Positions 2 to 60,587 of a stretch of DNA of 64,000 bases are shown here, piece by piece; positions within the stretch are counted from its first letter, which is position 1; every line of letters starts with the position of its first letter. The stretch lies in assembly GCF_015686655.1 (NCBI RefSeq), contig NZ_JADPMP010000011.1:1-64000 (forward strand), in the 5' to 3' direction. The notes beneath the pieces were generated by a model. It was not told where the DNA came from, did no database searches, and saw nothing but the letters and a program-made list of their open reading frames with translations. Both the position numbers and the translations under genes were made by a program. The stretch is from Pontibacter sp. FD36 (GTDB lineage Bacteria; Bacteroidota; Bacteroidia; Cytophagales; Hymenobacteraceae).

Positions 2-1426
2 CTGGCCTGCTACATCTTCGCAGACTTCTTTTACAACTTTGCAGACAGTCCGCTGCTGGTAATCGACTATACTGATGTAGGTTTCCTGCTGCTGGCTATG
101 TTCTTTGTGGCGCTGTATACCTTCGCCGCCTTCCTGGTAGCACTCTTCAGCTTACCTACCTCGAGTGTGTTTGAGCAAAAGAGCGAAGACCTGCTCAACT
201 TCCAGCGCCTGAGCCAGTCTATACAGCAGGGCCAGAGCGAGAAACAGGTATACGACATGCTTTTTGAGAGCACCGTGAAGGCGGCCGATGCCAGCGCTGC
301 CTGGCTCGAGATATTCAAAGGAGAGAAAAAAGATGAAATAGAGTTGTGCCATCAGCTCACCATAGAAGAAGAACAGATCAAGCGTATACGGCACTTGCTG
401 CTGGCCTACAACATCCAGCACATCGACTACATCAACAATAACCTCGACCGTAACCCTGGCTTCCGGGACCTGACGCTGCCTTGGAAATCGCTGATCATTC
501 TGCCGATCAAATCGAAGAAGCACCTCTTTGGGGTGCTATACCTGCTGAAGGACATTGAGCAAGGCTTTGACAGGGAAACGGTGAACGTACTGCGCACCTT
601 CACCAACCAGACCATTCTCACGATCGAAAACCTGCGCCTTGTACATGAGTCACTGCAAAACGAGCGTTACAAAGAGGAGCTCAAAATTGCCTCGCTCGTA
701 CAGGATAGCCTTATCCCGAAAAAATTCCCGAGTGACAGCTGGTTCGAGATTTCCACGCATGCGAAAGCAGCCAAAGAAGTAGGTGGTGACTTTTATGACT
801 TTCTGCAATTGAGCGAGTCACGCATTGCCATTATCATCGGCGACGTGTCGGGCAAAGGTATTTCGGCGGCCTTCCACATGGCCCAGATGAAGGGTATTTT
901 CCATGGCCTGATGCAGCAGGATATGCCGCCTAGTGAGTTCATGAAACAAGCTAACAGCGCCCTGAGCCGATGCCTTGAGAAAACCTCTTTTATTACTTCT
1001 GCGCTATACATCATTGATTATCGCATGAAGGGCTTTATGTTTGCCCGCGCAGGCCACTGCCATACCCTGTACTACAACTCCATGATGGATGACACTTTCT
1101 ATTTCCAGACGGACGGGTTGGGACTTGGTATCATTCGTGATAAAAGTTATAACAATCACGTTCGGGAAATGTATTATGACTACAACCCGAGCGATGTGAT
1201 GGTGATTTACACAGATGGTATCGTGGAGGCTCGCAGCCCTGCCAACGAGGAGTATGGAGAGGACAGATTGCGCTATATGCTCACCCAGACCTACCACTTG
1301 GAGGCCGAGGATATCAAGTGTGCTATTATTAACGACCTGGAGGATTTTACCGGTCCCACAGAAAACCTATATGATGACCAGACGCTGCTTGTCATCAAGT
1401 TTAAGCCGACTCAACCTAGTGAATAG
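2..1426 (+). CDS. SpoIIE-family PP2C-type serine phosphatase, 5' truncated by window edge
   Basis: The reading frame is open to the window edge, so the N-terminus is missing; the Met at 98 lies inside a hydrophobic segment and is unlikely to be the true start. At least one or two membrane segments precede a coiled stretch, a GAF-like sensor region (about 250-650) and a C-terminal PP2C/SpoIIE domain. Its metal-binding signatures are visible: GGDFYD near 782, GDVSGKG near 840, YTDG near 1210 and YDDQT near 1372. By family knowledge it dephosphorylates a phospho-STAS antagonist, like RsbU or SpoIIE. The STAS and HATPase genes follow within 14 bp, which fits a partner-switching operon. Function is a confident family call; the signal sensed is unknown. 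Confidence 0.9.
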   Translation: MACYIFADFFYNFADSPLLVIDYTDVGFLLLAMFFVALYTFAAFLVALFSLPTSSVFEQKSEDLLNFQRLSQSIQQGQSEKQVYDMLFESTVKAADASAAWLEIFKGEKKDEIELCHQLTIEEEQIKRIRHLLLAYNIQHIDYINNNLDRNPGFRDLTLPWKSLIILPIKSKKHLFGVLYLLKDIEQGFDRETVNVLRTFTNQTILTIENLRLVHESLQNERYKEELKIASLVQDSLIPKKFPSDSWFEISTHAKAAKEVGGDFYDFLQLSESRIAIIIGDVSGKGISAAFHMAQMKGIFHGLMQQDMPPSEFMKQANSALSRCLEKTSFITSALYIIDYRMKGFMFARAGHCHTLYYNSMMDDTFYFQTDGLGLGIIRDKSYNNHVREMYYDYNPSDVMVIYTDGIVEARSPANEEYGEDRLRYMLTQTYHLEAEDIKCAIINDLEDFTGPTENLYDDQTLLVIKFKPTQPSE

Positions 1427-1439
1427 TTATACGTAAAGG

Positions 1440-1784
1440 ATGCCGATGAAAATTACTAACCAAATCAAAGACACGACAATCATCATCACCCTGGATGGTG
1501 AACTGGACGCAAGCTCATCAGTTATGCTCGATGAAGCGCTTTCCGACCCCGAGATCATGACCTACAGCAAGATCCTGGTAGACTGCAAAGACCTGAACTA
1601 CATCTCGTCTGCAGGCCTTGGGGTATTCATTTCGCACCTGCAGCGATTTGAGGATGCACAGATCAAACTCATTTTCTACAACATGCAGGACAAAGTGCGC
1701 AACGTGTTCGAAATCCTGGGCCTTGACCTGCTCATGACTATCGTTTCGGATTACGAGGAAGCCATGACCATTGCTGATGAATAA
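1440..1784 (+). CDS. STAS-domain anti-sigma factor antagonist (RsbV/SpoIIAA-like)
   Basis: A 114-residue single STAS domain, the usual size for anti-sigma antagonists. The phospho-acceptor loop reads LNYISSAGLGVF at residues 52-63, and Ser57 aligns with the serine phosphorylated in RsbV. It should bind the downstream HATPase when unphosphorylated and be released from phosphate by the upstream PP2C protein. ATG at 1440 and ATG at 1446 are both possible starts; 1446 gives the more typical N-terminus MKITNQ. The 3' end overlaps the next gene, which supports translational coupling. Confidence 0.88.
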   Translation: MPMKITNQIKDTTIIITLDGELDASSSVMLDEALSDPEIMTYSKILVDCKDLNYISSAGLGVFISHLQRFEDAQIKLIFYNMQDKVRNVFEILGLDLLMTIVSDYEEAMTIADE

Positions 1785-2351: not shown

Positions 2352-4661
2352 ATGCGCAGCAATCAACTACTTGTTGCGGCAGCGGCCCTCCTAATGGCTG
2401 GCTGTACCGCAACCAGGAAGAATGACAAGCAGGAACCTATCATTGCGACCATTGGCTCCCAACCTATTTACACATCCGAGTTTCAGTATGTGTATGAGAA
2501 GAACAACGGAGGCAATGAAGACGCCTATACTCGCCAGAGTGTAAGCGAGTACCTCGATCTCTATACCCGTTTCAAGCTGAAGGTGATGGAAGGCGAAAGC
2601 CGTGGCCTGGACACCACCACCGCTTTTAAGCGCGAACTGGAGGGCTATAAGGAACAACTCGCCCAACCTTACCTCACCGAAAAAAGTGTGACCGACCAGC
2701 TGGTGCAGGAGGCTTACGAGCGCCTGAAACAGGAGGTGAACGCATCGCACATACTTCTCGGTCTACCCAACGATCCAAGCCCGCAGGACACACTGGCAGC
2801 CTACAACCAGGCCCTGGAGTTGCGCAAGCGATTGGAGGCTGGAGAGGCCTTTGAAAAGCTTGCCCGTGAGTTTTCACACGACCCATCGGCAGCTGAAAAC
2901 GGCGGTAACTTAGGCTACTTTACGGCCATGCAGATGGTATATCGCTTCGAAGACGCCGCCTACAAAACACCAGTTGGTCAGATCTCGATGCCGGTTCGCA
3001 CCCGATTCGGCTATCACCTGATCAAGGTAAACGACAAGCGTGCCGCACAGGGCGAAGTAAAAGTAGCTCATATCATGGTACGTGCCACACCGGGTATGCC
3101 GAAGGCAGACTCGCTGGCAGCCAAGCAGCGCATCGATGCTATCTACAAGCGAGTGCAGCGCAACGAGAGCTGGGACCGCCTGGCCGCTGAGTTTTCAGAG
3201 GACGCCAACTCTGCCGCCAACGGCGGGGAGCTGCCCTGGTTCGGTACCGGCCGCATGATCCCTTCGTTTGAGGAGGTATCATTTGCCTTGAAAAAAGAGG
3301 GTGAAGTGGCCCCTCCGGTGCTGACGCCTTATGGCTGGCACATTATCAAGCTTGTCGGCAAGCAATCGCTTCCTCCGTTTGAGGACATGGAGCAGAACCT
3401 ACGCAACAAGATTGCCAAAGACTCCCGCTCCGAGCTGAACAAAGCAGCCTTCCTGAAGCGCATCAAAACAGAAAACAACTTCAGCGAAGATGCCACTGTG
3501 AAAGCCGCTGCCTTGGGTAAGGCTACTGATGCCCTGATGCAAGGCAAATGGGACTATGATGCCGCTGATAGATCACTGAAGAACACACTGTTCACGATAC
3601 AGGGCAAGCCTTATACCGTGGCCGACTTCTATAGCTATGTGAAGGCTGAGCAACGTCCGCGTATGGCGGGCACCCCACAGCACCACATGAGCTCGTTTTA
3701 TGACAACTTCGTGCAGAAGAGCTTGTTGGCCTACGAGCGTGCCAACCTGGAGAACAAGTATCCGGATTACCGCATGCTGGTGCGTGAGTACCACGACGGC
3801 ATCCTGCTGTTCCAGTTGATGGACGAGAAGGTATGGTCAAAGGCTGTAGAAGACACAGCTGGCCTCCAGGCGTACTTTGAGCAGAACCGTGATAAGTACC
3901 AGTGGAAAGAGCGTGCACAGGCCACCGTGATCAGCGCTGCCAATGCGGAGTTACTCTCTAAAGCACAGCAGCAGTTGAGTGAGCGCCGCTACGAGGTACG
4001 CAACGGCAAACCAGCCGATATTACTTTCGAAACGAACAGCGCCACCCCGGATCAGGCAAGTATAGCCCGACTGAACGAACTGGCTGACCGGTTAAGCAAC
4101 AACCCGAACCTGACGCTGGAAGTGAATGGTCATGCCGATGCACGTGAAGCAGCTGGCAAGCGTGACCTTTCCGCAGAGCGCTCGCAGGCTGTAATGGCTT
4201 ACCTGACTGCCCGTGGCGTAGCAGCAGACCAGCTCAGCGCCAAAGCACTGGGCAAAACCAAGCAAGCCGCCGCTGACAATACCGAAACAGGCCGCCGCCG
4301 CAACAGACGCGTGTCGTTCACGCTTTACTCTTCAGAGTTGAGTGCACTGGCTGACAACCTGAATGCTGGCAACCCGCTGGGTGTACAGATCGTCGAGAAA
4401 AAATTCCAGAAAGGCGAAAACAAAGCTGTGGACGCTGTGAAGTGGGAAAAAGGCTCTTACAACACCGAACTGAACGGACGCAAGTACCTGGTGATCGTGC
4501 ACGATGTACTGGCTCCTGCTCCCAAGCAGCTGTCTGAAGTGAGAGGTCAGGTAACGGCTGACTACCAGAACTACCTGGACGAGCAGTGGGTAAAGCAGCT
4601 GCAGGAAAAGAACCCGGTTAGCGTTAACCAGACAGAGGTCGATAAAATTATCAGAAAATAA
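2352..4661 (+). CDS. Peptidylprolyl isomerase lipoprotein, two parvulin domains plus inserted OmpA-like domain
   Basis: The chosen start at 2352 begins a lipoprotein signal peptide (MRSNQLLVAAAALLMAGC); an earlier in-frame start at 2298 would bury it. A PpiC/SurA-like helical N-terminus is followed by two parvulin rotamase domains (first around VNASHILLG, second around VKVAHIMV, each with a SxxNGGxLxxF-type segment). Between the PPIase body and its C-terminal tail, about 4010-4335, sits an OmpA/MotB-like peptidoglycan-binding module with NGHAD and LSAERSQAV motifs. The role is probably periplasmic folding of outer-membrane proteins. It precedes another parvulin gene and moxR on the same strand. 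The inserted OmpA module is unusual for the family. Confidence 0.88.
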   Translation: MRSNQLLVAAAALLMAGCTATRKNDKQEPIIATIGSQPIYTSEFQYVYEKNNGGNEDAYTRQSVSEYLDLYTRFKLKVMEGESRGLDTTTAFKRELEGYKEQLAQPYLTEKSVTDQLVQEAYERLKQEVNASHILLGLPNDPSPQDTLAAYNQALELRKRLEAGEAFEKLAREFSHDPSAAENGGNLGYFTAMQMVYRFEDAAYKTPVGQISMPVRTRFGYHLIKVNDKRAAQGEVKVAHIMVRATPGMPKADSLAAKQRIDAIYKRVQRNESWDRLAAEFSEDANSAANGGELPWFGTGRMIPSFEEVSFALKKEGEVAPPVLTPYGWHIIKLVGKQSLPPFEDMEQNLRNKIAKDSRSELNKAAFLKRIKTENNFSEDATVKAAALGKATDALMQGKWDYDAADRSLKNTLFTIQGKPYTVADFYSYVKAEQRPRMAGTPQHHMSSFYDNFVQKSLLAYERANLENKYPDYRMLVREYHDGILLFQLMDEKVWSKAVEDTAGLQAYFEQNRDKYQWKERAQATVISAANAELLSKAQQQLSERRYEVRNGKPADITFETNSATPDQASIARLNELADRLSNNPNLTLEVNGHADAREAAGKRDLSAERSQAVMAYLTARGVAADQLSAKALGKTKQAAADNTETGRRRNRRVSFTLYSSELSALADNLNAGNPLGVQIVEKKFQKGENKAVDAVKWEKGSYNTELNGRKYLVIVHDVLAPAPKQLSEVRGQVTADYQNYLDEQWVKQLQEKNPVSVNQTEVDKIIRK

Positions 4662-6071: not shown

Positions 6072-6077
6072 ACACCC

Positions 6078-7043: not shown

Positions 7044-7231
7044 TTGTTGATTGCTTATTGTTGATTATTTAAAATTTCTCAGGTATAGCTCAAGCCGACT
7101 AGATATTGTTTTCTAGTAAGATTGGAGGAGTGAACTTAACAAATTTTCAGTCATATAGGACGTCAACAATTCAGCAATTGAACAATTCAACCATTCAAGA
7201 GACAACAATTAACAACCAGCAATCAACAATT
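7042..7231 (+). repeat. Repeat-rich intergenic element with inverted A/C-word ends
   Basis: Low-complexity words dominate: TTGTTGATT on the left, CAACAATT/AACAATTCA on the right. AATTGTTGATTGCT at 7042-7055 is the exact reverse complement of AGCAATCAACAATT at 7218-7231, and the match continues imperfectly inward, so the segment could fold into one long hairpin or be a MITE-like relic. The 13-mer CAACAATTAACAA at 7203-7215 recurs at 14935-14947. No coding capacity is seen. Confidence 0.5.
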
Positions 7232-7742: not shown

Positions 7743-7764
7743 CCAGCGGCTATACCTGATAAAA

Positions 7765-7804
7765 CAAAGCGCCCGCATACCTATACCTGCGGGCGCTTTG
7801 TTTT
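7765..7804 (+). terminator. Bidirectional terminator
   Basis: A perfect 13-bp GC-rich stem (7765-7777 with 7788-7800) with T-runs on both sides, lying between convergent genes. The 10-nt loop contains the window-wide motif CTATACC. Confidence 0.85.
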
Positions 7805-7820: not shown

Positions 7821-8687
7821 TTACTTATTCCGGATGGAGGTATGCCCCTCTTTGGAGTGATCCAGGTCCAGGTCGCCTTTTGGCTGCTTCTTCATGCTGG
7901 AGTCCGCCTCCTCACCTACAGGGCCTTTGGCGACCGTGATGCCTCCATCAACCATATAAAGTGCACCCGTCACATACGAAGCCTCGTCCGAGGCCAGGAA
8001 GCAGTAGACGTTCGCTACCTCTTCCGGGCTGCCTCTGCGCCCCATGGGTGTGGCTACCTTCATGGTCTTCACCATCTTCTTATCCATCGGTCCGGTGCTT
8101 TTGTGCGTCCAGGCGGTGTCGATTGGACCCGGGCCTACAATATTGACTCGCACACCAAACTGTGCCTGCTCTACGGCCAGCCCTTTCATGAAGGCATGTA
8201 TAAATCCTTTGGTTCCACCGTAGGGCGCATTCTGCGCTATACCGATCACACCGGCCTCCGATCCGGCCGACACGATGTTTCCTTTTGTTTTGTGCAGTTC
8301 AGGCAGCGCGGCCTTGCTCATGGCAAAAGCTGACTTAATATTGTTCTTGATCATGTAGTCCAGCGCCTCCTCTGTATAGTCCTGCAGCATATTCACCTCC
8401 GGAAAAACACCGGCATTGTTAATAAGGATGTCAAGTTGTCCATACTCCTTTACAGCCAATTTAACGCATTCCTTGGCATTGACTTCTGTGGAGATATCAC
8501 CATTATAAGCGATTGCTTCTCCTCCTTCCTTCTGTATCTCCTTTACTACATCGTCTACGGGGTCCTCCGGAAAGCCTGCTACCACCACACGGGCACCTTC
8601 CTGCGCAAATTTCTTGCAGATGGCCTCTCCTATACCTGTACCGCCGCCTGTCACAATAGCGACCTTGCCTTCTAATCTGTTTTTCAT
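7821..8687 (-). CDS. SDR-family NAD(P)-dependent oxidoreductase
   Basis: A classical short-chain dehydrogenase of about 288 residues: Rossmann motif TGGGTGIG near residues 13-20, NNAG motif, and the catalytic Ser/Tyr/Lys set in GNIVSAGSEAG...YGGTK. Glucose-1-dehydrogenase-like SDRs look similar, but the substrate cannot be read from sequence. The start at 8687 (MKNRLEGKVAIVTGG) is preferred over 8714 because the family begins just before the Rossmann strand. The C-terminal tail is charged and His/Asp-rich (about 25 residues). It is alone between a shared terminator and a divergent GNAT gene. Confidence 0.88.
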   Translation of the reverse strand: MKNRLEGKVAIVTGGGTGIGEAICKKFAQEGARVVVAGFPEDPVDDVVKEIQKEGGEAIAYNGDISTEVNAKECVKLAVKEYGQLDILINNAGVFPEVNMLQDYTEEALDYMIKNNIKSAFAMSKAALPELHKTKGNIVSAGSEAGVIGIAQNAPYGGTKGFIHAFMKGLAVEQAQFGVRVNIVGPGPIDTAWTHKSTGPMDKKMVKTMKVATPMGRRGSPEEVANVYCFLASDEASYVTGALYMVDGGITVAKGPVGEEADSSMKKQPKGDLDLDHSKEGHTSIRNK

Positions 8688-9525: not shown

Positions 9526-10666
9526 GGGGCTTCGCTACAAAAAAATCAGTGTCGAAAGTCAGGTATAGCGCATTCGAAAACTCCAGCTTTGGATTGTCAA
9601 GGTCGACCACAGGCTCTAACCGGAGTGTCAGGTATAGGTCTTCCATGATTTCGATGTCCTTCATCAGTCGCAGGATCAGCAGATGGCGGTCCTCCTGGAT
9701 GTAGTCAGGATCTTTGTAAGTCGTGGACGCTGACTGAAAAAGCTTCCCCCCTAGCTCGGTGATATACCCGTCACCGCGCCAGTAGCTCAGCATCACATCC
9801 TGGTACTTGGTGTCTATACCTGCGTTGAGGTAGATAGCGCCTCCCTTAGTAAACGGAAGCTGGAATGTATTGGAGTAGTCGTTAAAACCCAGCAGATAAT
9901 TCCTGGTGTATACCCGGTGGAGTACACGATGCGGCAGCATCCGTTCCAGCTCTATCCCCACTGCCGCATTGACCACGGTAAGCAAAGGCAACGGCGAACT
10001 ATCGATCTGCCCGCCTTTGTGCTGCGCCGTAAACTGCACAGGTATAGCCAGGCGCAGGGTATCCCCTTCTGTCCTGCCAGGCCGGTTGAGCAGGCGTATG
10101 GCAGAGCTGACACCCCCAGCCACTTCTTCCCGCACAGGATCAGCCCGGTAGATCATTTTGCTCCAGTCAATCCAGGCATCCAGTTTGACACGATGCGTGT
10201 TCAGCAAAAACTGCAGCCCGTTCTCCAGCCTGTCGTTGATCACACGCTCAAAATCATAGAGCGGCTCTACATAATCGTGACTGACGTTACCTTCTAAAGT
10301 ACCGAACACAAATGCCCAGTTTTCGCGCTGCCATTTTACGGTGAAGGTTGGCTGAAAGTCCTGGTAGCCCGAGCTGCCAAAGTCTTTCCATAGAAAAGCA
10401 CCGGCATCTATACGCACCGAGGCAGACGGATAATAGCTTACCCGCGGCATCAGGTGGTAACCAAACAAGGTATAGCCATCGGCTATCCTGTTGAAGTACT
10501 CATTGTTTTTAGAAAAGCCAAAAGCATGCAGCCCAATTCTAATTTGATTAGCATTTTCAGGTTTGACGGGTATGGTTAGCTTGAGTGCGTCGTTGTTGAG
10601 CTGACTGTAGGCTAAAGGGCTGTAAAGCACAGCAAAGGCACAAAATAAAAGCCTGAAATATCTCAT
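9518..10666 (-). CDS. Secreted, probable outer-membrane beta-barrel protein of unknown function
   Basis: From the ATG at 10666 the protein begins with a signal peptide ending at LAYSQ; the start at 10747 would add an unnatural leader. The remaining 360 residues are rich in alternating aromatic/polar strands (YHLMPRVSYYPSASVRIDAGAFLW and similar), as in outer-membrane barrels. I do not recognise a named family. It holds at least five copies of the GGTATAG/CTATACC motif. It is divergent from recA with a short AT-rich spacer. Function unknown. Confidence 0.72.
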   Translation of the reverse strand: MRYFRLLFCAFAVLYSPLAYSQLNNDALKLTIPVKPENANQIRIGLHAFGFSKNNEYFNRIADGYTLFGYHLMPRVSYYPSASVRIDAGAFLWKDFGSSGYQDFQPTFTVKWQRENWAFVFGTLEGNVSHDYVEPLYDFERVINDRLENGLQFLLNTHRVKLDAWIDWSKMIYRADPVREEVAGGVSSAIRLLNRPGRTEGDTLRLAIPVQFTAQHKGGQIDSSPLPLLTVVNAAVGIELERMLPHRVLHRVYTRNYLLGFNDYSNTFQLPFTKGGAIYLNAGIDTKYQDVMLSYWRGDGYITELGGKLFQSASTTYKDPDYIQEDRHLLILRLMKDIEIMEDLYLTLRLEPVVDLDNPKLEFSNALYLTFDTDFFVAKPRK

Positions 10667-12966: not shown

Positions 12967-13049
12967 TCATGAAATGGATGCAGCCAAATGGCTTCCAACA
13001 ATAGCTATACCTGCCTGTTCTGCTGACAGGCAACTCTAATCATAAACAC

Positions 13050-13748: not shown

Positions 13749-14789
13749 ATGAATTTAAACTCCCGTACGCTTGCCCTTTTGGTATCCCTGGCAGTGGCCC
13801 TTGTGCTTACTGCTTTTTTGGCTTTAGCCAGCTACTTTTCATCAAGGGGCCTAATGGCAGCGCTTGTACTGGTGTTCATCTGCTGCTTTCTGCTGATCTA
13901 TTTCTCGTATGAGGCACTGGTGTTCCGTGAGATCAAAAACGTGTATTCCAGCCTGGAGAAAATCAAAAAACAGGAATACCGCAAAGCAGAGGGCCGTTCT
14001 CTGTTTACGGCTGACCCGCTCCGGAAAATAAAAGACGACATCTACCAGATTGCTGAGCGCAAGCAGCAGGAAATTGACGAACTCAGGCACCTGCAGGTCA
14101 TGCGCCGCGAGTTTTTGGCTGATGTGTCGCACGAACTCAAGACTCCTATTTTCGCTGCGCAAGGCTTTATCCATACCTTGCTCGACGGCGCCATGGACGA
14201 CCCCAACGTGCGCGATAAGTTTCTACAGAAAGCAGCCAATAGCCTTGATGGCCTTGACACCCTGGTGCAGGACCTGATCAGCATCTCGCAGTTCGAAAAG
14301 GGCGTTGTGAAAATGGAGAAGCAAGACTTTGACGCTGTGCAGCTGGTACGGGAGGTGTTTGAGCAGCTGGAGCAAAAAGCCAGTAACAGCCAGATAAAAC
14401 TGCACCTGCTGGACCTGGAGCCAAACGAAAAGGTCATGCTGCACGCCGATCCCAACCGAATACGGCAAGTGTTTATCAACCTCGTGGACAATGCCATCAA
14501 GTATGGCAGGACTGGCGGTAACATCTGGGTTTCGTTTACAGAAGGTCGCAAGCGCTATACTATTACCGTAAAAGACGATGGTACAGGTATAGCCCAGGAG
14601 CATATCAACCGCATATTCGAACGCTTCTACCGCATCGACAAGAGCCGCTCCCGCGACAAAGGAGGCTCAGGCCTCGGCTTGGCCATCTCCAAACACATCA
14701 TCGAAGCCCATCGCTCATTCATCGCTGTAAAAAGCGAGCTCGGAAAAGGAACTACGCTCCGCTTTAAACTACTCAAGGCGAGGGGATAG
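13749..14789 (+). CDS. Membrane sensor histidine kinase (PhoR-like)
   Basis: 346 residues: two close membrane helices (about 8-28 and 36-53), a short cytoplasmic linker, the HisKA H-box FLADVSHELKTPI with phospho-acceptor His128, and a HATPase domain with N-box NLVDNAIKYG, G1 DDGTGIA and G2 GGSGLGLAI. The periplasmic loop is only a few residues, so it probably senses within the membrane or through a partner. It is coupled to the response regulator upstream. The stop codon is closely followed by a repeat-like intergenic sequence. Confidence 0.93.
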   Translation: MNLNSRTLALLVSLAVALVLTAFLALASYFSSRGLMAALVLVFICCFLLIYFSYEALVFREIKNVYSSLEKIKKQEYRKAEGRSLFTADPLRKIKDDIYQIAERKQQEIDELRHLQVMRREFLADVSHELKTPIFAAQGFIHTLLDGAMDDPNVRDKFLQKAANSLDGLDTLVQDLISISQFEKGVVKMEKQDFDAVQLVREVFEQLEQKASNSQIKLHLLDLEPNEKVMLHADPNRIRQVFINLVDNAIKYGRTGGNIWVSFTEGRKRYTITVKDDGTGIAQEHINRIFERFYRIDKSRSRDKGGSGLGLAISKHIIEAHRSFIAVKSELGKGTTLRFKLLKARG

Positions 14790-14990: not shown

Positions 14991-15040
14991 CATGCTGTGT
15001 GGCTAAGGTATAGCCGCGCTTGTTAATGATACAGTTACGC

Positions 15041-15754
15041 ATGAAATACCCGGTTTTTAAAGACCTGATCATATTTGAGAACGAGGACTTTCTGGTGGTG
15101 AATAAGCCGCCGTTTTTGTCCACTCTCGAAGACCGCACTCCCAATACCACCAACCTGCTTAAGCTCGCCAAGCAGCATAACCCGGATCTGCAAGCCTGCC
15201 ACCGCCTTGATAAAGACACTTCCGGCTGCCTGGTGTTTGCCAAAAACCCGGAGGCTTACCGCCACATGTCCATGCAGTTTGAGCACCGCGAGGTGTATAA
15301 GGTATACCATGCCGTAGCCTGGGGCGTGCATAAGTTTGAAGACCAACTCGTGAACCGCTCAATACTGGCGGGTGCCAAAGGCGTAGCTAAACTTACCCCG
15401 CAGGGCAAACCAGCCGAAACATATTTCACGACGCTGGAAAGCTACAGTCGCCATACCTTGCTGGAGTGTATGCCGGTAACAGGCCGCTTGCACCAGATTC
15501 GCATTCACCTGGCTTTCCTGGGAGCACCGATTGTGGGTGATAAACTGTACGGCGGCGAGGACCTATACCTGAGCACGTTGAAACGTAAATTCAACCTCAA
15601 ACAACAAACCGAAGAGCAACCGCTCATCAAACGATTTGCTCTGCACTCGCACACGATTGGCTTCAGACTCATGAACGAGGAGCCGATCAAAGTTGAAGCG
15701 CCATACCCGAAAGACATGGCCGTGCTGATCAAGCAACTACGGCAGTACAACTAG
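15041..15754 (+). CDS. RluA-family RNA pseudouridine synthase
   Basis: About 237 residues from the ATG at 15041 (MKYPVFKDLIIFENEDFLVVNKP). The catalytic motif HRLDKDTSG carries the nucleophilic Asp57, and the later RLHQIRIHL and GDKLYGG motifs are standard for RluA-type enzymes that isomerise uridine in rRNA or tRNA. No S4 domain is present. The target position cannot be assigned. The more upstream start at 15020 is less likely. Confidence 0.9.
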   Translation: MKYPVFKDLIIFENEDFLVVNKPPFLSTLEDRTPNTTNLLKLAKQHNPDLQACHRLDKDTSGCLVFAKNPEAYRHMSMQFEHREVYKVYHAVAWGVHKFEDQLVNRSILAGAKGVAKLTPQGKPAETYFTTLESYSRHTLLECMPVTGRLHQIRIHLAFLGAPIVGDKLYGGEDLYLSTLKRKFNLKQQTEEQPLIKRFALHSHTIGFRLMNEEPIKVEAPYPKDMAVLIKQLRQYN

Positions 15755-15796: not shown

Positions 15797-15818
15797 GCTT
15801 GTATAAGGTATAGCCTTT

Positions 15819-16799: not shown

Positions 16800-16983
16800 G
16801 TTGGTCAGTTTAGATAAATGGATGGCTATACCTGTAACAGGTATACCGCTACACTTTAAGACGCCTCTTAAAATTAGATGTTTCCGCATTATTCCCAAAA
16901 CCGTGTCTACGGGTGGCATTAGCAGGATTGTGGAGCATTCAGAAAAATATTCAAAGAATTATATTACAAATACTTGACCTTTC

Positions 16984-45186: not shown

Positions 45187-45208
45187 GATGCTATACCTCT
45201 CTGGAAAC

Positions 45209-47862: not shown

Positions 47863-48930
47863 ATGTACCCATACCGACACCTCTTTGATTTCACCCGCGA
47901 GATTTTCCTGAACATCGGCTGCTCTTTGGAAGATGCCCAGCTAGCGACCCAGGTACTGCTGGAGGCTGACCTGCGCGGCGTAGACTCCCACGGCGTAGCC
48001 CGCCTGAGCGGCTACATTCGCCTTTGGGAAGCCGGCCGCATCAATCCGAAGCCAAACATCAGCATTGTCCACGAAACACCCAGCACCGCCACAGTAGACG
48101 GCGACGGCGGATTGGGCCTGGTGGTGGCGCCGCGTGCGATGGAGATTGCCATGAAGAAAGCAGAGAACGTAGGTTCGGGCTGGGTGTCGGTGCGCAACTC
48201 GAACCACTTCGGTATAGCGGGCTACCATGCCATGCAGGCCCTGCAGCACGACATGATCGGGATGGCCATGACCAATGCCAGCCCGCTAGTAGCACCAACG
48301 CACTCAACACAACGCATGCTGGGCACCAACCCGATTGCAGTAGCTGTGCCAACCAATGAGCAGCCTCCTTTTGTAGCTGACCTCGCCACCACCACTGCTG
48401 CTAACGGCAAGCTGGAAATACTCCAACGCAAGCAAAAGCAAACGCCAAGCGGCTGGGTACAGACGGCCATCGGATTGGGCTCTACCAACCCTTTTGAAGT
48501 ACAGGCTGGCGGTGCACTGCTCCCGTTGGGCAGCACCAAAAACCGCGGTAGTCACAAAGGCTATGCGCTTGGCTCTATCGTCGATATTTTCTCAGGTGTG
48601 CTGTCGGGTGCCAACTATGGCCCGTGGGTACCGCCTTTCGTCAGCTTCCTCGCTCCTCCCGCCGACCCGGTGGGCCAAGGTATAGGGCACTTTTTCGGCG
48701 CTATGCGCATCGACGCCTTCCGCCCTGCCGACGAGTTCAAGCACCACATGGACAACTGGATCAATGCCTTCCGCAACGCCCAGGTAAAACGTGGCGAAAA
48801 AGCCGTGCTTATACCTGGCGACCCGGAGCGCATCATGACAGCCAGACGTCTCCAGAAAGGTATACCATTGTTGCCGCCTGTTGAGAAGGATTTGGCAGAG
48901 GTAGGCAAGAAGTTCGGTGTAAAATTCTAA
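47863..48930 (+). CDS. Ldh-family (malate/L-lactate dehydrogenase type 2) oxidoreductase
   Basis: 355 residues: LEADLRGVDSHGVARLSGYI at the N-terminus, VSVRNSNHFGIAGYHAMQAL (catalytic His), NPIAVAVPT and SHKGYALGSIVDIFSGVLSGA, all typical of the MDH2/YlbC NAD(P)-dependent 2-oxoacid reductases. The substrate may be malate, ureidoglycolate, sulfolactate or similar. A small membrane-protein gene begins 3 bp after its stop. No other pathway gene is adjacent. Confidence 0.92.
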   Translation: MYPYRHLFDFTREIFLNIGCSLEDAQLATQVLLEADLRGVDSHGVARLSGYIRLWEAGRINPKPNISIVHETPSTATVDGDGGLGLVVAPRAMEIAMKKAENVGSGWVSVRNSNHFGIAGYHAMQALQHDMIGMAMTNASPLVAPTHSTQRMLGTNPIAVAVPTNEQPPFVADLATTTAANGKLEILQRKQKQTPSGWVQTAIGLGSTNPFEVQAGGALLPLGSTKNRGSHKGYALGSIVDIFSGVLSGANYGPWVPPFVSFLAPPADPVGQGIGHFFGAMRIDAFRPADEFKHHMDNWINAFRNAQVKRGEKAVLIPGDPERIMTARRLQKGIPLLPPVEKDLAEVGKKFGVKF

Positions 48931-48933: not shown

Positions 48934-49272
48934 ATGGCGACGGACAAAGGTATAGCCTTGTTTCGGCTATTAGGCTTAGGCTCCACAAGGCGCAGTATCC
49001 TGATGCTGGTGCTATCCTGGATCCTGAATGTAGCCTGGCTCGGGTTCAACTACTTTTGGCGGCTTGTTCCGGAATCAGTGCTGATTGCTATACCTGTGCT
49101 CCTGTTATTGTATGGACTAACTGCCCTGATCGCCTATGTGTATTGGGGTGTAAAAGGTGTACGGGAACAAGATGAACCATACGCCAGTGTCATGGTGGGG
49201 GTAATTGTCGCAATCACGCTGCTATACCTGAACTATACCTTACTTGACGCGCTGCTTTCGCTTAGTCGCTAA
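48934..49272 (+). CDS. Small three-helix membrane protein of unknown function
   Basis: 112 residues with hydrophobic segments near 18-40 (SILMLVLSWILNVAWLGFNYF), 48-72 (VLIAIPVLLLLYGLTALIAYVYWG) and 86-105 (VMVGVIVAITLLYLNYTLLDALL). It is 3 bp downstream of the Ldh-type gene and so co-transcribed. It carries four GGTATAG/CTATACC motifs in 300 bp, the densest in any gene here. No family recognised. Confidence 0.68.
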   Translation: MATDKGIALFRLLGLGSTRRSILMLVLSWILNVAWLGFNYFWRLVPESVLIAIPVLLLLYGLTALIAYVYWGVKGVREQDEPYASVMVGVIVAITLLYLNYTLLDALLSLSR

Positions 49273-49516: not shown

Positions 49517-49539
49517 ACGGTATAGGCAACAGGTATAGC

Positions 49540-51399
49540 CTACTCTATTTTCTTGCCGGCCATAGCCTGTTTGATGGAGATCTGCATCACACGCTCTGCA
49601 AACGGGCTGGTCTGCTCTTCCAATGTGTCCACTGCTTTCAATATCTGATCTTTGTCGCCGCTTGGCAGCACGTCGCGCAGCTTTTTTAAGTTCTCCTGGG
49701 TCATCTTAATTTCTTCTTCTGTCAGGTGCTGACTGTTCTTCTCCAGGAAGCGTTCCACCTGGTACAGCATCTGCTCAGCCGTGGTGCGGGCTTCGATCAC
49801 CATACGCGCCGACACATCCTCACGTGCGTGCGTAATAGAATCCATCAGCATCTGCTCTACCTGAGAGTCTGTCAAGCCATACTGTGGTTTCACTTCCACC
49901 TCCTGGCGTACTCCTGAGCGCAATTCAATCGCTTCTACTTTCAGAATACCATCTGCATTCAGAATAAAGTTTACGTCTACTTTCGGGAAGCCGGCTGGCA
50001 TGGCCGGTATTCCTTTCAGGTCGAACTCAGCCAGTTTGCGGTTCTCCTTCACCAGATCACGCTCGCCCTGGTACACTGATATCTTCATGTTCACCTGACC
50101 GTCAATGGAAGTTGTGTACTGACGGCCGGCTTTGGTTGGGATCTTGGAGTTACGCGGGATAATGGAGTCCATCAGTCCGCCCATAGTCTCTATACCTAAC
50201 GTAAGCGGCGTTACGTCTAGCAGCAGGATGTCTTTGCGGTTACCCGACAAGATATCGGCTTGAATGGCAGCACCGAGGGCCACTACTTCATCCGGGTTGA
50301 GGGTATTGTTGGCAGGCTTTCCGAAGAACTCCGACACCGTTTCGTATACCATCGGCACGCGTGTAGAGCCACCTACCATGATCACGGCATCGATCTGCTC
50401 CGGCTTCAGCTTGGCATCACCCATCGCCTGGCGGCAACTGTCAATAGTCTTGGCTACGATCGGGGCAATCAATTCCTCGAACTTGTGACGCGTAATACCG
50501 CATTCGATATCATTTACTTTGCTGGTATAGATCTGCTGCTGGCTCAATGCCTTTTTGGCCTCCTCTGCCTTCAAACGCAGCTCCTGCTGCAGGTTCTTGT
50601 CCTCGTTCAGCGTGTCTGCTACCAATTGGTTTTCCTGAATCCAGTAGTTGATGATAGCGCGATCCATGTCGTCGCCACCTAGATAGGTATCGCCGTGCGT
50701 TGAGAGCACTTCAAATATACCCTGGTGCAGACTCAGAATAGAAATATCAAATGTGCCACCACCCAGGTCGTAGACAGCGATCGTCTTTTCTTCAGAAGGA
50801 TCTATACCTATACCGTAGGCAAGCGAAGCTGCTGTCGGCTCGTTCACGATGCGTAGCACTTCCAGTCCGGCAAGTTTACCCGCGTCACGCGTTGCTTGGC
50901 GCTGGGAATCGTTGAAGTAAGCTGGTACGGTGATCACTGCTCTATTCACAGGAGTTTTCAGAGCATGCTCGGCACGCTCACGGAGCTCTTTCAAAATCTC
51001 TGCCGACAACTCGATAGGCGAATAGAATTTATCTCCCGCCCTGATTTTCACCAGTCCTTCGCTGTCATCGTCGATGATTTTGTAACCAAAGTAATCTTTG
51101 TGCTCTCCAAGGTCTTTGTAAGATTTGCCCAGCAGGCGTTTCACTGAGTAAATGGTATTGGCCGGATCAGTAGTGAGGTATTCTTTTGCCTCATTGCCTA
51201 CAATCGTCTCGCCGTTCTGGGTGAAGTGCACCACAGATGGCACAATGGTACCGCGACCGAGGTCGTTTATAGCTACCGGCTTTTTGGTTTCGGGATGTAT
51301 ATAGGCTACCAGGCTGTTGGTAGTCCCAAGGTCTATACCTACGATCACCTCTTCCTGCTGAAGGGCTCCCGTAGAAAGGTTTATCGCAACTTTTGCCAT
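49540..51399 (-). CDS. hscA: HscA-like Hsp70 chaperone
   Basis: 619 residues of Hsp70: nucleotide-binding GIDLGTTNSLVAYI, AVYDLGGGTFDISIL, VGGSTRVPMV and a substrate-binding domain from LDVTPLTLGIETMGG on. The N-terminal extension VAINLSTGALQQEEV before GIDLGTTNS and the HscA-like middle (GVRQEVEVKPQYGLTDSQVEQML) favour the iron-sulfur chaperone HscA over DnaK. No isc genes are adjacent, so the Fe-S role is by family resemblance. Own promoter-like element and terminator, hence monocistronic. Confidence 0.85.
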   Translation of the reverse strand: MAKVAINLSTGALQQEEVIVGIDLGTTNSLVAYIHPETKKPVAINDLGRGTIVPSVVHFTQNGETIVGNEAKEYLTTDPANTIYSVKRLLGKSYKDLGEHKDYFGYKIIDDDSEGLVKIRAGDKFYSPIELSAEILKELRERAEHALKTPVNRAVITVPAYFNDSQRQATRDAGKLAGLEVLRIVNEPTAASLAYGIGIDPSEEKTIAVYDLGGGTFDISILSLHQGIFEVLSTHGDTYLGGDDMDRAIINYWIQENQLVADTLNEDKNLQQELRLKAEEAKKALSQQQIYTSKVNDIECGITRHKFEELIAPIVAKTIDSCRQAMGDAKLKPEQIDAVIMVGGSTRVPMVYETVSEFFGKPANNTLNPDEVVALGAAIQADILSGNRKDILLLDVTPLTLGIETMGGLMDSIIPRNSKIPTKAGRQYTTSIDGQVNMKISVYQGERDLVKENRKLAEFDLKGIPAMPAGFPKVDVNFILNADGILKVEAIELRSGVRQEVEVKPQYGLTDSQVEQMLMDSITHAREDVSARMVIEARTTAEQMLYQVERFLEKNSQHLTEEEIKMTQENLKKLRDVLPSGDKDQILKAVDTLEEQTSPFAERVMQISIKQAMAGKKIE

Positions 51400-51509: not shown

Positions 51510-52076
51510 TTATACCTTTAATACAGCCAACGAAACAGGGTACGGATCGTGTGTAGCGTCTTTGCTAACCAGCCAGCAAACCCTGATCACGTGCAGTGCA
51601 TTTAGGAAGTATAGAACCAGATAGACACCCAATACATACCACGAACCAGGAAAATGCATGATTTTCATCCAGGCAAAAAGCATGACCAGTGGATAGGTAA
51701 CCAACGACCAGGTGATCTGAAAGTTTAGCAGGCTTATACCTTGCTCGTGCACGTGAAGCACTTTCTTTTTCTGTGTTATCCAGATGATCAGTGGGAAAAT
51801 GAGATTCCCCAGCGGCATCAACAAGTAAGAAAGCACCGATAGATGCATTAGTAGTAATACACCTTTGTCTGGTTCCTTGCCGTAGTCATACACTTCCTCC
51901 ACATCTACGTCTAGTGCCTGGCAGATGGACTGCAAGGTATAGCCGCGTGGTTCGCTTTCATTTTTCTCTATACGCTGCAAAGTGCGCAGGCTTATTCCCG
52001 CCTGCTCTGATAGTTCCTCTTGGCTCAGTCCTTTTCGCTTACGGATGTCCAGTATTTTCTGTCCCAACTGTTTCAT
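51510..52076 (-). CDS. XRE-family regulator fused to a DUF4870-like membrane domain
   Basis: 188 residues: an N-terminal HTH_3 domain (LGQKILDIRKRKGLSQEELSEQAGISLRTLQRIEKNESEPRGYTLQSICQALDV, residues 3-57) followed by about four membrane helices in DUF4870-like order (LLLMHLSVLSYLLMPLGNLIFPLIIWI and on). Such one-component membrane regulators are common in Bacteroidota; signal and targets are unknown. An inverted repeat ATGTCAT-N4-ATGACAT lies about 62 bp upstream and may be its own operator. Confidence 0.85.
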   Translation of the reverse strand: MKQLGQKILDIRKRKGLSQEELSEQAGISLRTLQRIEKNESEPRGYTLQSICQALDVDVEEVYDYGKEPDKGVLLLMHLSVLSYLLMPLGNLIFPLIIWITQKKKVLHVHEQGISLLNFQITWSLVTYPLVMLFAWMKIMHFPGSWYVLGVYLVLYFLNALHVIRVCWLVSKDATHDPYPVSLAVLKV

Positions 52077-52644: not shown

Positions 52645-55049
<2,405 letters not shown>

Positions 55050-57765: not shown

Positions 57766-58143
57766 TTATTTAGAAGCTTTCTTCTTGTTTGCTACTGTCT
57801 TACGCTTACCTTTTCTTGTGCGCGAGTTATTCTTCGTGCGCTGACCTCGTACAGGTAGACCTTTACGGTGTCTCAAACCACGGTAGCAGCCAATATCAAG
57901 AAGACGCTTGATATGCAATTGCACTTCTGATCTCAAAACACCTTCAGTTTTGATCTCAGCTGCGATCACATTTCTGATCTCATTAGCTTCATCTTCGGTC
58001 CAGTCTTTCACCTTTTTGTCAAGATCCACCCCGGCTTTGTTTAGGATTTGCACAGAGAGATTACGACCTATACCATAGATGTACGTCAAAGAGATCTCTC
58101 CTCTTTTGTTGTCCGGAATATCAACTCCTGCTATTCTTGCCAT
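57766..58143 (-). CDS. rpsM: 30S ribosomal protein S13
   Basis: 125 residues: [72 protein letters not shown]. Full-length S13 at the 30S head, contacting 23S rRNA and P-site tRNA. First gene of the alpha operon block after rpmJ. Confidence 0.97.
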
Positions 58144-58493: not shown

Positions 58494-59267
58494 TTATTGT
58501 TGTTTAGCTTTATCTATATAATCAAAAGTTGTTAATACTTCTGCTTGATCTTTTCTTATTACAACTGTATGCTCAAAATGAGCAGATGGTTTATTATCAC
58601 GGGTCCGGATTGTCCATCCATCCTCCTCTTGAATAATATACCTGGTACCAAGGTTTACCATTGGCTCAATCGCAAGTACCAGCCCATTCTGAAGCTTTAA
58701 TCCCTGTCCACGTTTTCCGTAGTTTGGCACTTCAGGAGCCTCATGTAGGTTACGCCCTATACCGTGCCCTACCAATTCTCGTACAACACCATATTTAGAA
58801 GCTTCAGCATGTGTCTGTATAGCATGGCTAACATCTCCAAGCCTATTTCCTACTACTGCTTTTTCAATACCTTTATACAAGGACTCTTTTGTAACATCTA
58901 ACAGATGAGAAACCTCTTCTGAAACATTACCAACAGCATGGGTATAAGCACAGTCGCTGTGGAAACCGTTATAATAGACTCCACAGTCAACAGAAATTAC
59001 GTCTCCATCGTTCAAAACGTAATTACTTGGCATCCCATGAACTACAGTCGAGTTTACCGAGATACAGAGGCTAAAAGGAAACCCATTGTAGTTCTTAAAA
59101 GATGGAACAGCTCCATGATCTTTGATAAACTCTTCAGCTCTTTTATCCAGTACCAGGGTTGACACCCCTTCCTTTATAAGAAGAGCTATTTCGCCATGTG
59201 CTTTACTTAATATTAAAGCACTCTGGCGAATTAGCTCTATTTCTTCTTCAGTCTTGTAAAAAACCAT
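58494..59267 (-). CDS. map: Methionine aminopeptidase, type I
   Basis: 257 residues: metal-binding residues in VISVDCGVYYNGFHSDCAYTHAVG, GHGIGRNLHEAPEVPNYG, and the late EPMVNLG and TVVIRKDQAEVLT. It removes the initiator Met from nascent proteins. No N-terminal zinc finger, so class Ia/b core. Placed between secY and infA, 3 bp after secY and 1 bp before infA, as in many spc operons. Confidence 0.97.
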   Translation of the reverse strand: MVFYKTEEEIELIRQSALILSKAHGEIALLIKEGVSTLVLDKRAEEFIKDHGAVPSFKNYNGFPFSLCISVNSTVVHGMPSNYVLNDGDVISVDCGVYYNGFHSDCAYTHAVGNVSEEVSHLLDVTKESLYKGIEKAVVGNRLGDVSHAIQTHAEASKYGVVRELVGHGIGRNLHEAPEVPNYGKRGQGLKLQNGLVLAIEPMVNLGTRYIIQEEDGWTIRTRDNKPSAHFEHTVVIRKDQAEVLTTFDYIDKAKQQ

Positions 59268-59270
59268 TTA

Positions 59271-60587
59271 TTAGGATACCATGGCAATATTCTCTGTTCG
59301 GCCTCTAAGCTTACCAGATTTCATCATGCCATCATAATGACGCATTAGTAAATAACTTTCAATCTGCTGCAATGTGTCGAGAACAACACCCACCATGATG
59401 ATCAGTGAAGTGCCTCCATAGAACTGAGCAAACTCTCTAGTTACTCCAAATAGCATGGCGATAGCAGGAAAGATTGCAACAAGCGCTAGATAAATAGCAC
59501 CAGGCAGCGTGATTTTTGTAAGAATATTATCAATATACTCTGAGGTAGAACGACCTGGTTTAACACCCGGTACAAAACCACCACTACGCTTCAAGTCATC
59601 AGCAATTTGATTTGGATTAACAGTGATCGCTGTGTAGAAGTATGTAAATATCAGGATCATCAATCCAAACACTACATTGTACTGCCACGAAGTGAAGTCA
59701 GAGAATGTCGCTCCTATATAACTCGCTGTTTCATTTGAATCTGCCCAGATTGAAGCAATCATAGAGGGTAGAAACATTAATGATTGAGCGAAGATGATAG
59801 GCATAACACCTGCCGCATTTACTTTCAAAGGAATAAACTGGCGCTGTCCGCTGTATAGCGAGCTACCGCCAACCTGCTTGGCATATTGTACAGGGATTCT
59901 TCTTACTGCCTGAGTAAGCATTACTACAGACATTACTACAAAGAAGAGAACCACTAACTCAAATATAAACAGCAATGCACCATTTAATTCTTTAGATAAG
60001 GCTTCAGCAACAATAGCACCTGGGAAACGAGAGATAATGCCAATCATAATCAGCATTGATATACCGTTACCTATACCTTTATCTGTAATTCTTTCACCAA
60101 GCCACATACAGAAGATTGTGCCTGATGTCAACACAATCATGGAGCTTATGGTAAACAGCGTAGTATTTATTACAATTGCTTCACTGTTAATAGTCGCAAC
60201 AAAGCCTACTGCTTGAGCAAGCGTAATGATAATAGTAAGAACTCGGGTGATTTGGTTGATTTTCTTTCTACCAGACTCACCCTCCTTCTGCATTTTTTGA
60301 AAATACGGAACGGCTATAGTAAGTAGCTGTAATACGATAGAAGCTGAAATGTATGGCATGATCCCTAACGCAAAGATGGAAGCATTGCTAAATGCTCCAC
60401 CTAAGAACGTATCCAAAAGGCCAAATATACCTTCGGTGTTGGCCTTGAGCTGGTTAGGATCTATACCAGGAAGAACAACATAAGAACCTAATCTAAAAAT
60501 AGCTATAAAACCTAAGGTATTGAGTATTCGTACTCTTAGATCATCAATAGCAAAAATGTTCTTAATTGTTGTTATAAACTTCTTCAT
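59271..60587 (-). CDS. secY: Preprotein translocase channel subunit SecY
   Basis: 438 residues with ten transmembrane helices. Seen: DLRVRILNTLGFIAIFRLGSYVVLPGID at the N-terminus, the plug-region GGAFSNASIFALGIMPYISASIVLQLL and the cytoplasmic loop FVPGVKPGRSTSEYIDNIL that contacts SecA and the ribosome. Follows rplO by 5 bp. It forms the SecYE pore with SecE (not in window) and works with SecA at 35.9-39.2 kb. Confidence 0.97.
   Translation of the reverse strand: MKKFITTIKNIFAIDDLRVRILNTLGFIAIFRLGSYVVLPGIDPNQLKANTEGIFGLLDTFLGGAFSNASIFALGIMPYISASIVLQLLTIAVPYFQKMQKEGESGRKKINQITRVLTIIITLAQAVGFVATINSEAIVINTTLFTISSMIVLTSGTIFCMWLGERITDKGIGNGISMLIMIGIISRFPGAIVAEALSKELNGALLFIFELVVLFFVVMSVVMLTQAVRRIPVQYAKQVGGSSLYSGQRQFIPLKVNAAGVMPIIFAQSLMFLPSMIASIWADSNETASYIGATFSDFTSWQYNVVFGLMILIFTYFYTAITVNPNQIADDLKRSGGFVPGVKPGRSTSEYIDNILTKITLPGAIYLALVAIFPAIAMLFGVTREFAQFYGGTSLIIMVGVVLDTLQQIESYLLMRHYDGMMKSGKLRGRTENIAMVS

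Follow-up and report, generated by a model that had tools for sequence, protein, structure and literature searches.

Why does the heptamer GGTATAG recur so densely in the first 64,000 nucleotides of contig NZ_JADPMP010000011.1 of Pontibacter sp. FD36, and is it a signal of the genome as a whole? This stretch (the window) contained 81 exact copies, 39 on the forward and 42 on the reverse strand. A preliminary description had reported about 80 copies of a non-palindromic word, in tenfold excess and evenly split between the strands, and the recount agreed on each point. Dinucleotide shuffles of the window gave 4.96 ± 2.26 copies, none of 100 shuffles reaching 81, and an order-3 Markov model predicted 16.1. 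A Markov model of maximal order, trained on the 5- and 6-mers of the window itself, predicted 69.7. Since these shorter words contain the motif, this model is circular and provides no independent null. Sub-words in the window were also inflated (GGTATA, 153; AGGTAT, 164).

In the whole 4.84-Mb genome, AGGTATAGC occurred 2,148 times (1,087 forward and 1,061 reverse), against 31 occurrences of the reversed word (21 and 10). Synonymous-codon shuffling of 196 genes of genome G000 led to an expectation of 31.1 ± 4.8 copies of GGTATAG against 220 observed (seven-fold) and of 9.7 copies of AGGTATAG against 164 observed (17-fold); the reversed word was found 20 times, with 27.9 expected. The same shuffle gave 201 observed against 26.1 expected in genome G105, and 618 against 95.9 for the word AACTATA in genome G085. 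Chance, dinucleotide composition, order-3 Markov structure and codon effects were thus ruled out as the cause by their respective nulls. The genome-wide signal at the DNA level that had been proposed, to be abandoned if a codon-aware null accounted for the count or if the remaining genome held a near-random number, was upheld, as neither was the case. From the 81 window copies an extended form (C/A)-A-GGTATAG-(C>G) was derived (−1 = A in 62 of the 81, +1 = C in 45, −2 = C in 42). Beyond two bases on either side there was almost no information, which ruled out a longer repeat family as the source. A short non-palindromic word on both strands, present in hundreds to thousands of copies above composition and codon nulls, is what DNA uptake sequences (DUS) and uptake signal sequences (USS) look like.

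The main feature of the word, beyond what the preliminary description could see, is its clade-specific spelling. The survey covered 50 genomes of the genus, together with 150 that belong to five further genera. SecA of the host shares 91% identity with its counterpart in Pontibacter fetidus and 72% with the next hit; the genus is therefore probably Pontibacter, the name used here. AGGTATAGC reached 1,365–2,768 copies in 12 of the Pontibacter genomes and 57–297 in the other 38; the other genera had 5–62 per genome. K-mer counts in the 20-kb recA regions of 40 genomes of the genus revealed that many of the low genomes use AAGTATA or AACTATA. Whole-genome counts were 4,114–11,818 for AAGTATA in 20 genomes (reversed word 276–623) and 11,674–13,168 for AACTATA in five (reversed word 626–833), and two mixed genomes held both words (G058, 9,116 AAGTATA and 6,094 AACTATA; G033, 7,552 and 8,118). 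The highest density was one copy per 0.33 kb (G085), about three per kb. The 50 species were therefore sorted into AGGTATAG (12), AAGTATA (20), AACTATA (5), mixed (2) and weak or motif-less (11), a sorting of our own without sharp borders: G018, placed with AACTATA, also holds 5,110 AAGTATA, and G043, placed with AAGTATA, also holds 3,531 AACTATA. The weak or motif-less class was defined by the ratio of AAGTATA to the reversed word, which was 0.8–1.5-fold in G002, G028, G125 and G127, 1.8–2.6-fold in G013, G075, G097, G109, G113 and G115, and 4-fold in G131. AAGTATA also exceeded its reversed word about 2.4–2.8-fold in the 12 AGGTATA genomes (G000, 1,363 vs 559) and 1.3–2.5-fold in genus g3; this surplus may be a residue or an effect of base composition. 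All spellings share the frame A-[AG]-[GC]-TAT-A-R. Among 80 Bacteroidota SecA loci, the Pontibacter locus alone stood out for the three words.

In a tree of eleven recA-region proteins from 41 of the 50 genomes, rooted at the midpoint, the AGGTATA genomes were monophyletic (12 of 12, support 1.0), as were the AACTATA and mixed genomes (the five in the tree, support 1.0). AAGTATA genomes lay on either side of the root, and AAGTATA is therefore probably the ancestral spelling. Weak or motif-less genomes appeared in at least three places (G002/G115/G013/G113; G125; G075/G131). The dialects of the genomes in the tree were congruent with phylogeny, as in systems of the DUS/USS type.

The spelling also switched at orthologous sites. 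Thirty unique sites had AAGTATA as the commonest word (in at least four AAGTATA genomes). Eight of these read AGGTATA in six or more genomes of the AGGTATA dialect; for the other words that have A at position 2 the corresponding figure was 119/5,785 (p = 1.6e-7). The opposite direction (at least three AAGTATA genomes) was weaker, with 5/22 against 252/3,037 (p = 0.03). The same word was kept at 1/30 and 4/22 of the unique sites, compared with 25% and 54% for other words. We preferred this test to counts over genome pairs because pairs share history. In the pair counts against AAGTATA genomes, AGGTATA sites had AAGTATA in 19.2% of cases and the unchanged word in 9.0% (n = 4,367), and AAGTATA sites in AGGTATA genomes had switched in 20.1% and kept the word in 5.1% (n = 4,173). 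Most control words showed 0–5% of the matching substitution, and those with small n were higher: AGGCATA (D1 to D3, 0.364, n = 44; D1 to none, 0.125, n = 88), TGGTATT (D1 to D3, 0.19, n = 42) and TAGTATC (D2 to D1, 0.091, n = 88; D2 to D2, 0.094, n = 127; D2 to D3, 0.083, n = 24; D2 to none, 0.171, n = 41).

Copies of the word were better conserved than their surroundings. Identity at third codon positions within AGGTATAG sites was 0.961 against 0.733 in the 20-bp flanks for G000/G091, and 0.937 against 0.598 for G000/G046; the pair farthest apart, G000/G121, had 78.9% and 58.5%. In five of seven pairs p ranged from 8e-16 to 0.018. Sites in spacers were 0.75–0.97 identical over the seven pairs, and their flanks 0.61–0.86. 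Ranked among all 7-mers in ten pairs, the last three of which compare only 87–89 words, AGGTATA was in the top 1–7% and GGTATAG in the top 3–19%. The word was also specific: a change at any of positions 1–6 left at most 19% of its frequency, G was weakly tolerated at position 7, and position 8 favoured A, G or C over T. Single mismatches summed over positions 1–6, with five motif-less genomes of 20 kb each as the reference, amounted to 786 per Mb vs 802 for AGGTATAG, 884 vs 830 for AAGTATAA and 1,516 vs 320 for AACTATAG. A clear halo of near-misses is therefore confined to the AACTATA dialect.

In 264 kb of G000, spacers carried 1.91 copies per kb and genes 1.01. Overall, spacer density was 1.9- to 2.8-fold that of genes. 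The 232 coding copies in these 264 kb included 101 (65 + 36) in frames that use ATA. The earlier proposal that the reading frames force this rare Ile codon thus fits fewer than half of these copies, and the commonest frame was xxC-TAT-ACC (Tyr-Thr; 81 copies). Motif copies contained 96 of 916 ATA codons. The codon pairs GGT-ATA for Gly-Ile (132/386, 26.8 expected), TAT-ACC for Tyr-Thr (117/223, 35.3 expected) and CTA-TAC for Leu-Tyr (42/250, 9.1 expected) were all raised; the preference for the DNA word thus extends to frames beyond those named earlier. Orientation to genes was uneven (sense 83 vs anti 149 in G000; 420 vs 239 in G085), in part owing to a stop in one of the frames. In 20 segments of 20 kb sampled from G085, an AACTATA genome in a single contig, with the leading strand assigned by GC skew, the word occurred 551 times on the leading and 525 times on the lagging strand (p = 0.45). 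This ruled out a replication polarity of the type of FtsK-orienting polar sequences (KOPS) or Chi, in agreement with what the strand balance of the window had suggested.

The word was scarce in the foreign DNA that was sampled, as it is for systems of the DUS/USS type; the sample was small, consisting of one segment and the first 20 kb of each of three second replicons, one of which was shown to be conjugative. Segment L162:1-20000 of G085 had 11 copies in 20 kb against a mean of about 54. Alongside ordinary proteins it encodes members of the HipA, AbiEii and RadC families, and it is probably an island. The three second replicons had 0.55, 0.10 and 0.20 copies per kb, against 1.74, 1.27 and 0.82 in the respective whole genomes. 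The first carries genes for relaxase, TraG and TraM, and two scanned frames of the second were AbiEii and DUF6088. Within the window, segments that had been singled out after the fact as poor in the motif were confirmed as such (1–7 kb, one copy; recA, none; 20–22.7 kb, none; 42.4–43.4 kb, none; 55–64 kb, four). Of the suggested depletion in highly expressed or foreign DNA, the foreign part was borne out in this sample, next to these poor segments of the window.

The genes needed for transformation were sought in the 50 Pontibacter genomes. comEC, dprA and recA were each present in 50/50, and a multi-HHH protein of 304–346 aa, putatively ComEA-like on the strength of its domains, was found in 49/50, with remnants in G089. 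The core transformation genes that accompany DUS/USS-type signals are thus present in the host, and in motif-less species too. Both comEC and dprA had internal stops in G089 (L328, L329, L330) and G046 (L331, L332) only, two unrelated genomes in which the genes had intact neighbours. The multi-HHH gene was also broken in G089, and a DDE transposase gene adjoins the comEC remains in G046. That the two genes are broken in the same two genomes only suggests that they behave as one dispensable pathway. In G119 the open frame of comEC was shorter (561 aa). In the excerpted text of PMC8459023, ComEC, DprA, ComF, RecA, an HHH protein, a DUF5689 protein, a barrel and a DUF1343 protein are given as essential for transformation in Riemerella, which also belongs to the Bacteroidota, is transformable and prefers its own DNA (PMC7965970, PMC8459023). 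The conserved Pontibacter genes resemble this machinery; the DUF5689 protein and the presumed barrel differ in being patchy. No convincing type IV pilus or type II secretion ATPase was found with PF00437 over the 50 genomes, a search that did not extend to pilins or secretin. Matches had 18.8–25.9 bits over 38–66 of 370 positions, three of the 50 genomes lay just above the cut-off of 24.9, and scoring took in 31, not all, of the first-look candidates in most genomes. The pilus reading of DUS/USS-type signals, with a minor pilin as the receptor, was thus not borne out by this search.

We put it at about an even chance that the word is a DNA-uptake self-recognition signal maintained by transformation-driven drive. 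In this reading, Pontibacter would have a DNA receptor, at the surface or in the periplasm, that favours double-stranded DNA carrying (C/A)A-[AG]-[GC]-TATA-R. Such DNA would enter more often through ComEC, be handed to DprA and RecA and recombine with the resident homologue; copies arising by point mutation could then spread through the population, and lost copies could be restored (molecular drive). A shift in the base preference of the receptor at position 2 or 3 would lead to gradual rewriting of the genome in a new dialect, with AAGTATA giving way to AGGTATAG in the one clade and AACTATA in the other, and a loss of specificity would lead to loss of the word. Drive by biased uptake and homologous recombination would produce accumulation without selection on each site, shifts of dialect and scarcity in foreign DNA. 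An uptake-sequence-like motif was among the possibilities first named for the word and fits the dialect data best of these; we infer the step from the pattern of the word to DNA uptake, with transformation as the presumed driver and a receptor that would set the spelling. This receptor would be something other than a type IV pilus protein, since no convincing pilus ATPase was found. Somewhat more tentatively, at a little under even odds, we propose that Pontibacter recognizes its own DNA through a system of three or more genome-wide dialects, whose reader would be uptake machinery other than a type IV pilus.

To our knowledge, uptake sequences are known from two proteobacterial families only, both with pilus-based uptake. 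The word resembles the DUS of Neisseriaceae, recognized by the minor pilin ComP, in being short, non-palindromic and present in thousands of copies. It differs in that Pontibacter belongs to the Bacteroidota and not the Betaproteobacteria, its spelling is unrelated, a convincing pilus ATPase is lacking, inverted pairs are not in strong excess, the density reaches about three copies per kb, and its role in uptake is a presumed one. The matched passages of PMC3630211 describe DUS variants as dialects congruent with phylogeny and give about 1,900 copies of AT-DUS in N. meningitidis and N. gonorrhoeae. Because the pilus feature was looked for and not found, we do not file the word as a member of the DUS/USS group, which it resembles and like which it may work. 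USS are flanked by AT-rich tracts, which are absent around the Pontibacter word, and their machinery is pilus-based; those of Pasteurellaceae reportedly comprise two types split between subclades. According to the matched passages of PMC1939737, the 9-bp USS of Pasteurellaceae has 1,471 copies in H. influenzae and is explained by biased uptake and recombination. Cyanobacterial HIP1, a highly iterated octamer, is the palindrome GCGATCGC; in the excerpts of PMC4390886 its function is debated, its abundance depends on the species, and the few exceptional variant words are sporadic rather than arranged in clades. In contrast, the Pontibacter words (AGGTATAG, AAGTATA, AACTATA) are non-palindromic and their spellings mark clades. 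Chi is likewise an over-represented short non-palindromic word of bacterial chromosomes, polar and enriched on the leading strand. The Pontibacter word shows no leading-strand bias and has several spellings in one genus. For Riemerella and Flavobacterium, the k-mer table of PMC7965970 holds A- or T-rich words only, unlike the Pontibacter word; in the matched passages these are possible candidates whose function is left open, and R. columbina prefers its own DNA. Among the matches listed from open-licence papers, the excerpts contained neither a working uptake sequence in Bacteroidota nor a GGTATAG-type word in Pontibacter.

Several observations weigh against an uptake signal under drive. Presence of the motif in the 50 genomes was tracked by none of ComEC, DprA, multi-HHH protein, DUF5689, barrel and pilus ATPase. 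None of the 11 weak or motif-less genomes had a broken comEC or dprA, and no extra decay of the word was clear in the genomes in which both genes are broken, with small numbers throughout (G089, 12/20 vs 12/21 in G052; G046, 25/28). With queries chosen by position near recA/comEC and by the published description rather than by locus tag, the DUF5689 family was found in 22/50 genomes, patchily and without a match to the motif distribution, and the presumed Riemerella barrel in 16/50, including none of the 12 AGGTATA genomes. Polarised losses exceeded gains on young branches, and turnover does not prove drive: G000/G091 had 83 shared, 14 lost, three gained and 10 mixed AGGTATA sites (GGTATAG: 66, 7, 0 and 13), and G105/G111 had 78, 10, 4 and 17 (GGTATAG: 63, 9, 7 and 13). 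A first turnover count gave a loss rate of 0.077 for the motif vs an average of 0.0815 for all 7-mers and a gain per near-miss of 0.0028 vs 0.0036 (GGTATAG, 0.0058); we gave it less weight because ordinary words lose their fast columns to its outgroup filter. Retention in the AACTATA dialect (0.669) was not above that of controls (0.35–0.71, n 32–40). Switching was weaker wherever this dialect took part: in pair counts against AAGTATA genomes, sites of AACTATA showed AAGTATA in 7.7% and the unchanged word in 6.8% of cases (n = 1,330), and against AGGTATA genomes they showed AGGTATA in 5.9% and the unchanged word in 2.7% (n = 982). Copies were somewhat clustered (coefficient of variation of gaps 1.17–1.5). 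Finally, inverted AGGTATA pairs within 20 bp, an arrangement typical of the terminators formed by DUS and USS, showed no strong excess in G000 (10 and 3 vs 3.8 expected per class) or G105 (10 and 4 vs 5.0), and part of them are overlapping palindromes; terminator hairpins were rejected on this ground as the main role of the word.

The numbers of pairs within 120 bp, observed and expected, were 96 vs 83 in G000, 151 vs 108 in G105 and 467 vs 305 in G085. Same-direction copies within 20 bp were in excess in G105 (L181-L190; 28 vs 10.1) and G085 (L151-L170; 77 vs 29.2), and one stretch of G105 has the word in tandem. In the same G085 segments, inverted AACTATA pairs with the plus copy first numbered 87 within 20 bp vs 14.6 expected, most of the printed examples being the overlapping palindrome AACTATAGTT.

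Other processes could make a word abundant. If an orphan methyltransferase, or a Vsr-like enzyme, recognized a non-palindromic site, it could bias mismatch repair so that near-misses are turned into the word, a ratchet similar to a model for HIP1, with the spelling following changes in the specificity of the enzyme. We regard this as unlikely. It would suit the density in G085, and the single mismatches of AGGTATA and AAGTATA stand at the motif-less level, as for an enzyme site; an over-represented word linked to methyltransferases also has a precedent in the excerpts of PMC4390886. Against it, the word is non-palindromic, and the inferred gains (two AGGTATA, four GGTATAG) are spread over several positions and base changes, although they are too few to decide. 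Slightly less probable is a recombination hotspot, in which the word would be a Chi-like signal for a nuclease of the AddAB/RecBCD type acting on incoming linear DNA, and word-bearing fragments would be integrated more often whatever their route of entry. Such a hotspot would yield drive, dialects and scarcity in foreign DNA with no uptake receptor, but the even distribution over leading and lagging strands in G085 is unlike polar Chi, and the AT-rich core is unlike the Chi words known to us.

Selection on each copy, as the binding site of an abundant protein in nucleoid organisation, strand marking or transcription pausing, would agree with the conserved sites, the denser spacers and the uneven orientation to genes. 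It would, though, demand both simultaneous selection on 2,000–13,000 sites and a change of spelling at many of them in each of two clades, in the face of species without the word; nor is there any order by replication strand in G085. We rate it marginally below the hotspot. That the word is a by-product of base composition, codon usage, protein motifs or a repeat family is very improbable: the circular maximal-order model alone (69.7 of 81) speaks for it, whereas the counts exceed the dinucleotide, order-3 and synonymous-codon nulls, the flanks are nearly uninformative past two bases, and AGGTATAGC is rare in the 150 genomes of other genera.

Copies of GGTATAG (dialect 1 spelling) in the window, as exact matches on both strands
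Feature	Position	Strand	Remark
Span of 81 dispersed GGTATAG copies, genes and spacers	536..60467	both	
GGTATAG copy	536..542	-	
GGTATAG copy	2561..2567	-	
GGTATAG copy	7082..7088	+	
GGTATAG copy	7750..7756	-	
GGTATAG copy	7781..7787	-	
GGTATAG copy	8237..8243	-	
GGTATAG copy	8630..8636	-	
GGTATAG copy	9562..9568	+	
GGTATAG copy	9631..9637	+	
GGTATAG copy	9814..9820	-	
GGTATAG copy	10041..10047	+	
GGTATAG copy	10469..10475	+	AAGTATA in 10/17 aligned AAGTATA-dialect genomes
GGTATAG copy	13005..13011	-	
GGTATAG copy	14586..14592	+	
GGTATAG copy	15007..15013	+	
GGTATAG copy	15563..15569	-	
GGTATAG copy	15807..15813	+	
GGTATAG copy	16438..16444	+	
GGTATAG copy	16474..16480	+	
GGTATAG copy	16826..16832	-	Inverted pair with second AGGTATA (TATACCTGTTACAGGTATA on - strand)
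GGTATAG copy	17211..17217	-	
GGTATAG copy	17405..17411	-	
GGTATAG copy	17631..17637	-	
GGTATAG copy	18433..18439	-	
GGTATAG copy	19530..19536	-	
GGTATAG copy	19876..19882	+	
GGTATAG copy	22813..22819	-	
GGTATAG copy	22897..22903	-	
GGTATAG copy	23306..23312	+	
GGTATAG copy	23877..23883	+	
GGTATAG copy	25057..25063	+	
GGTATAG copy	25430..25436	+	
GGTATAG copy	26937..26943	+	
GGTATAG copy	28716..28722	-	Inverted pair with second AGGTATA (TATACCTGATCAGGTATA)
GGTATAG copy	30351..30357	-	
GGTATAG copy	32467..32473	+	
GGTATAG copy	33222..33228	+	
GGTATAG copy	33476..33482	+	
GGTATAG copy	34395..34401	+	
GGTATAG copy	34556..34562	-	
GGTATAG copy	35408..35414	-	
GGTATAG copy	37721..37727	+	
GGTATAG copy	39542..39548	+	
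GGTATAG copy	39565..39571	+	
GGTATAG copy	39767..39773	-	
GGTATAG copy	40301..40307	-	
GGTATAG copy	40401..40407	+	
GGTATAG copy	40506..40512	+	
GGTATAG copy	40882..40888	-	
GGTATAG copy	41234..41240	-	
GGTATAG copy	41869..41875	-	
GGTATAG copy	43929..43935	-	
GGTATAG copy	44190..44196	-	
GGTATAG copy	44933..44939	+	
GGTATAG copy	45191..45197	-	
GGTATAG copy	45676..45682	+	
GGTATAG copy	46144..46150	+	
GGTATAG copy	46327..46333	+	
GGTATAG copy	47167..47173	+	
GGTATAG copy	47585..47591	+	
GGTATAG copy	48211..48217	+	
GGTATAG copy	48679..48685	+	
GGTATAG copy	48949..48955	+	
GGTATAG copy	49088..49094	-	
GGTATAG copy	49222..49228	-	
GGTATAG copy	49233..49239	-	
GGTATAG copy	49519..49525	+	
GGTATAG copy	49532..49538	+	
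GGTATAG copy	50190..50196	-	
GGTATAG copy	50524..50530	+	
GGTATAG copy	50802..50808	-	
GGTATAG copy	50808..50814	-	
GGTATAG copy	51333..51339	-	
GGTATAG copy	51936..51942	+	
GGTATAG copy	52935..52941	-	
GGTATAG copy	53152..53158	+	
GGTATAG copy	54716..54722	-	
GGTATAG copy	58068..58074	-	
GGTATAG copy	58757..58763	-	
GGTATAG copy	60071..60077	-	
GGTATAG copy	60461..60467	-	

High-scoring words in Galbibacter, Winogradskyella and Tamlana were rejected as similar signals, being mostly local tandem repeats. Short tandem or local repeats mimic genome-wide words in small samples (L014:19681-19918; L020:5671-5695 and 13588-13636; L037:4739-4816), and loci L048 and L053 also hold high-scoring words. 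Within the same family, ACCTAGGG occurred 11 times in genus g4 (L313:1-16000; 0.3 expected), and the palindrome CGCATGCG 12 times in genus g2 (L311:1-16000; 0.4 expected).

If the reading as an uptake signal is true, uptake sequences would have evolved independently in the Bacteroidota, and an ancestral spelling would have been rewritten twice and lost several times within one genus. A further case of uptake sequences in another phylum would allow a direct test of how genomes are rewritten when a receptor changes, and the dialects, together with the motif-less sister species, would offer a phylogenetic handle on a Bacteroidota DNA receptor. The species with and without the motif described above lend themselves to such a comparison. 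Even if the word does not serve uptake, Pontibacter carries a genome-wide word at up to three copies per kb.

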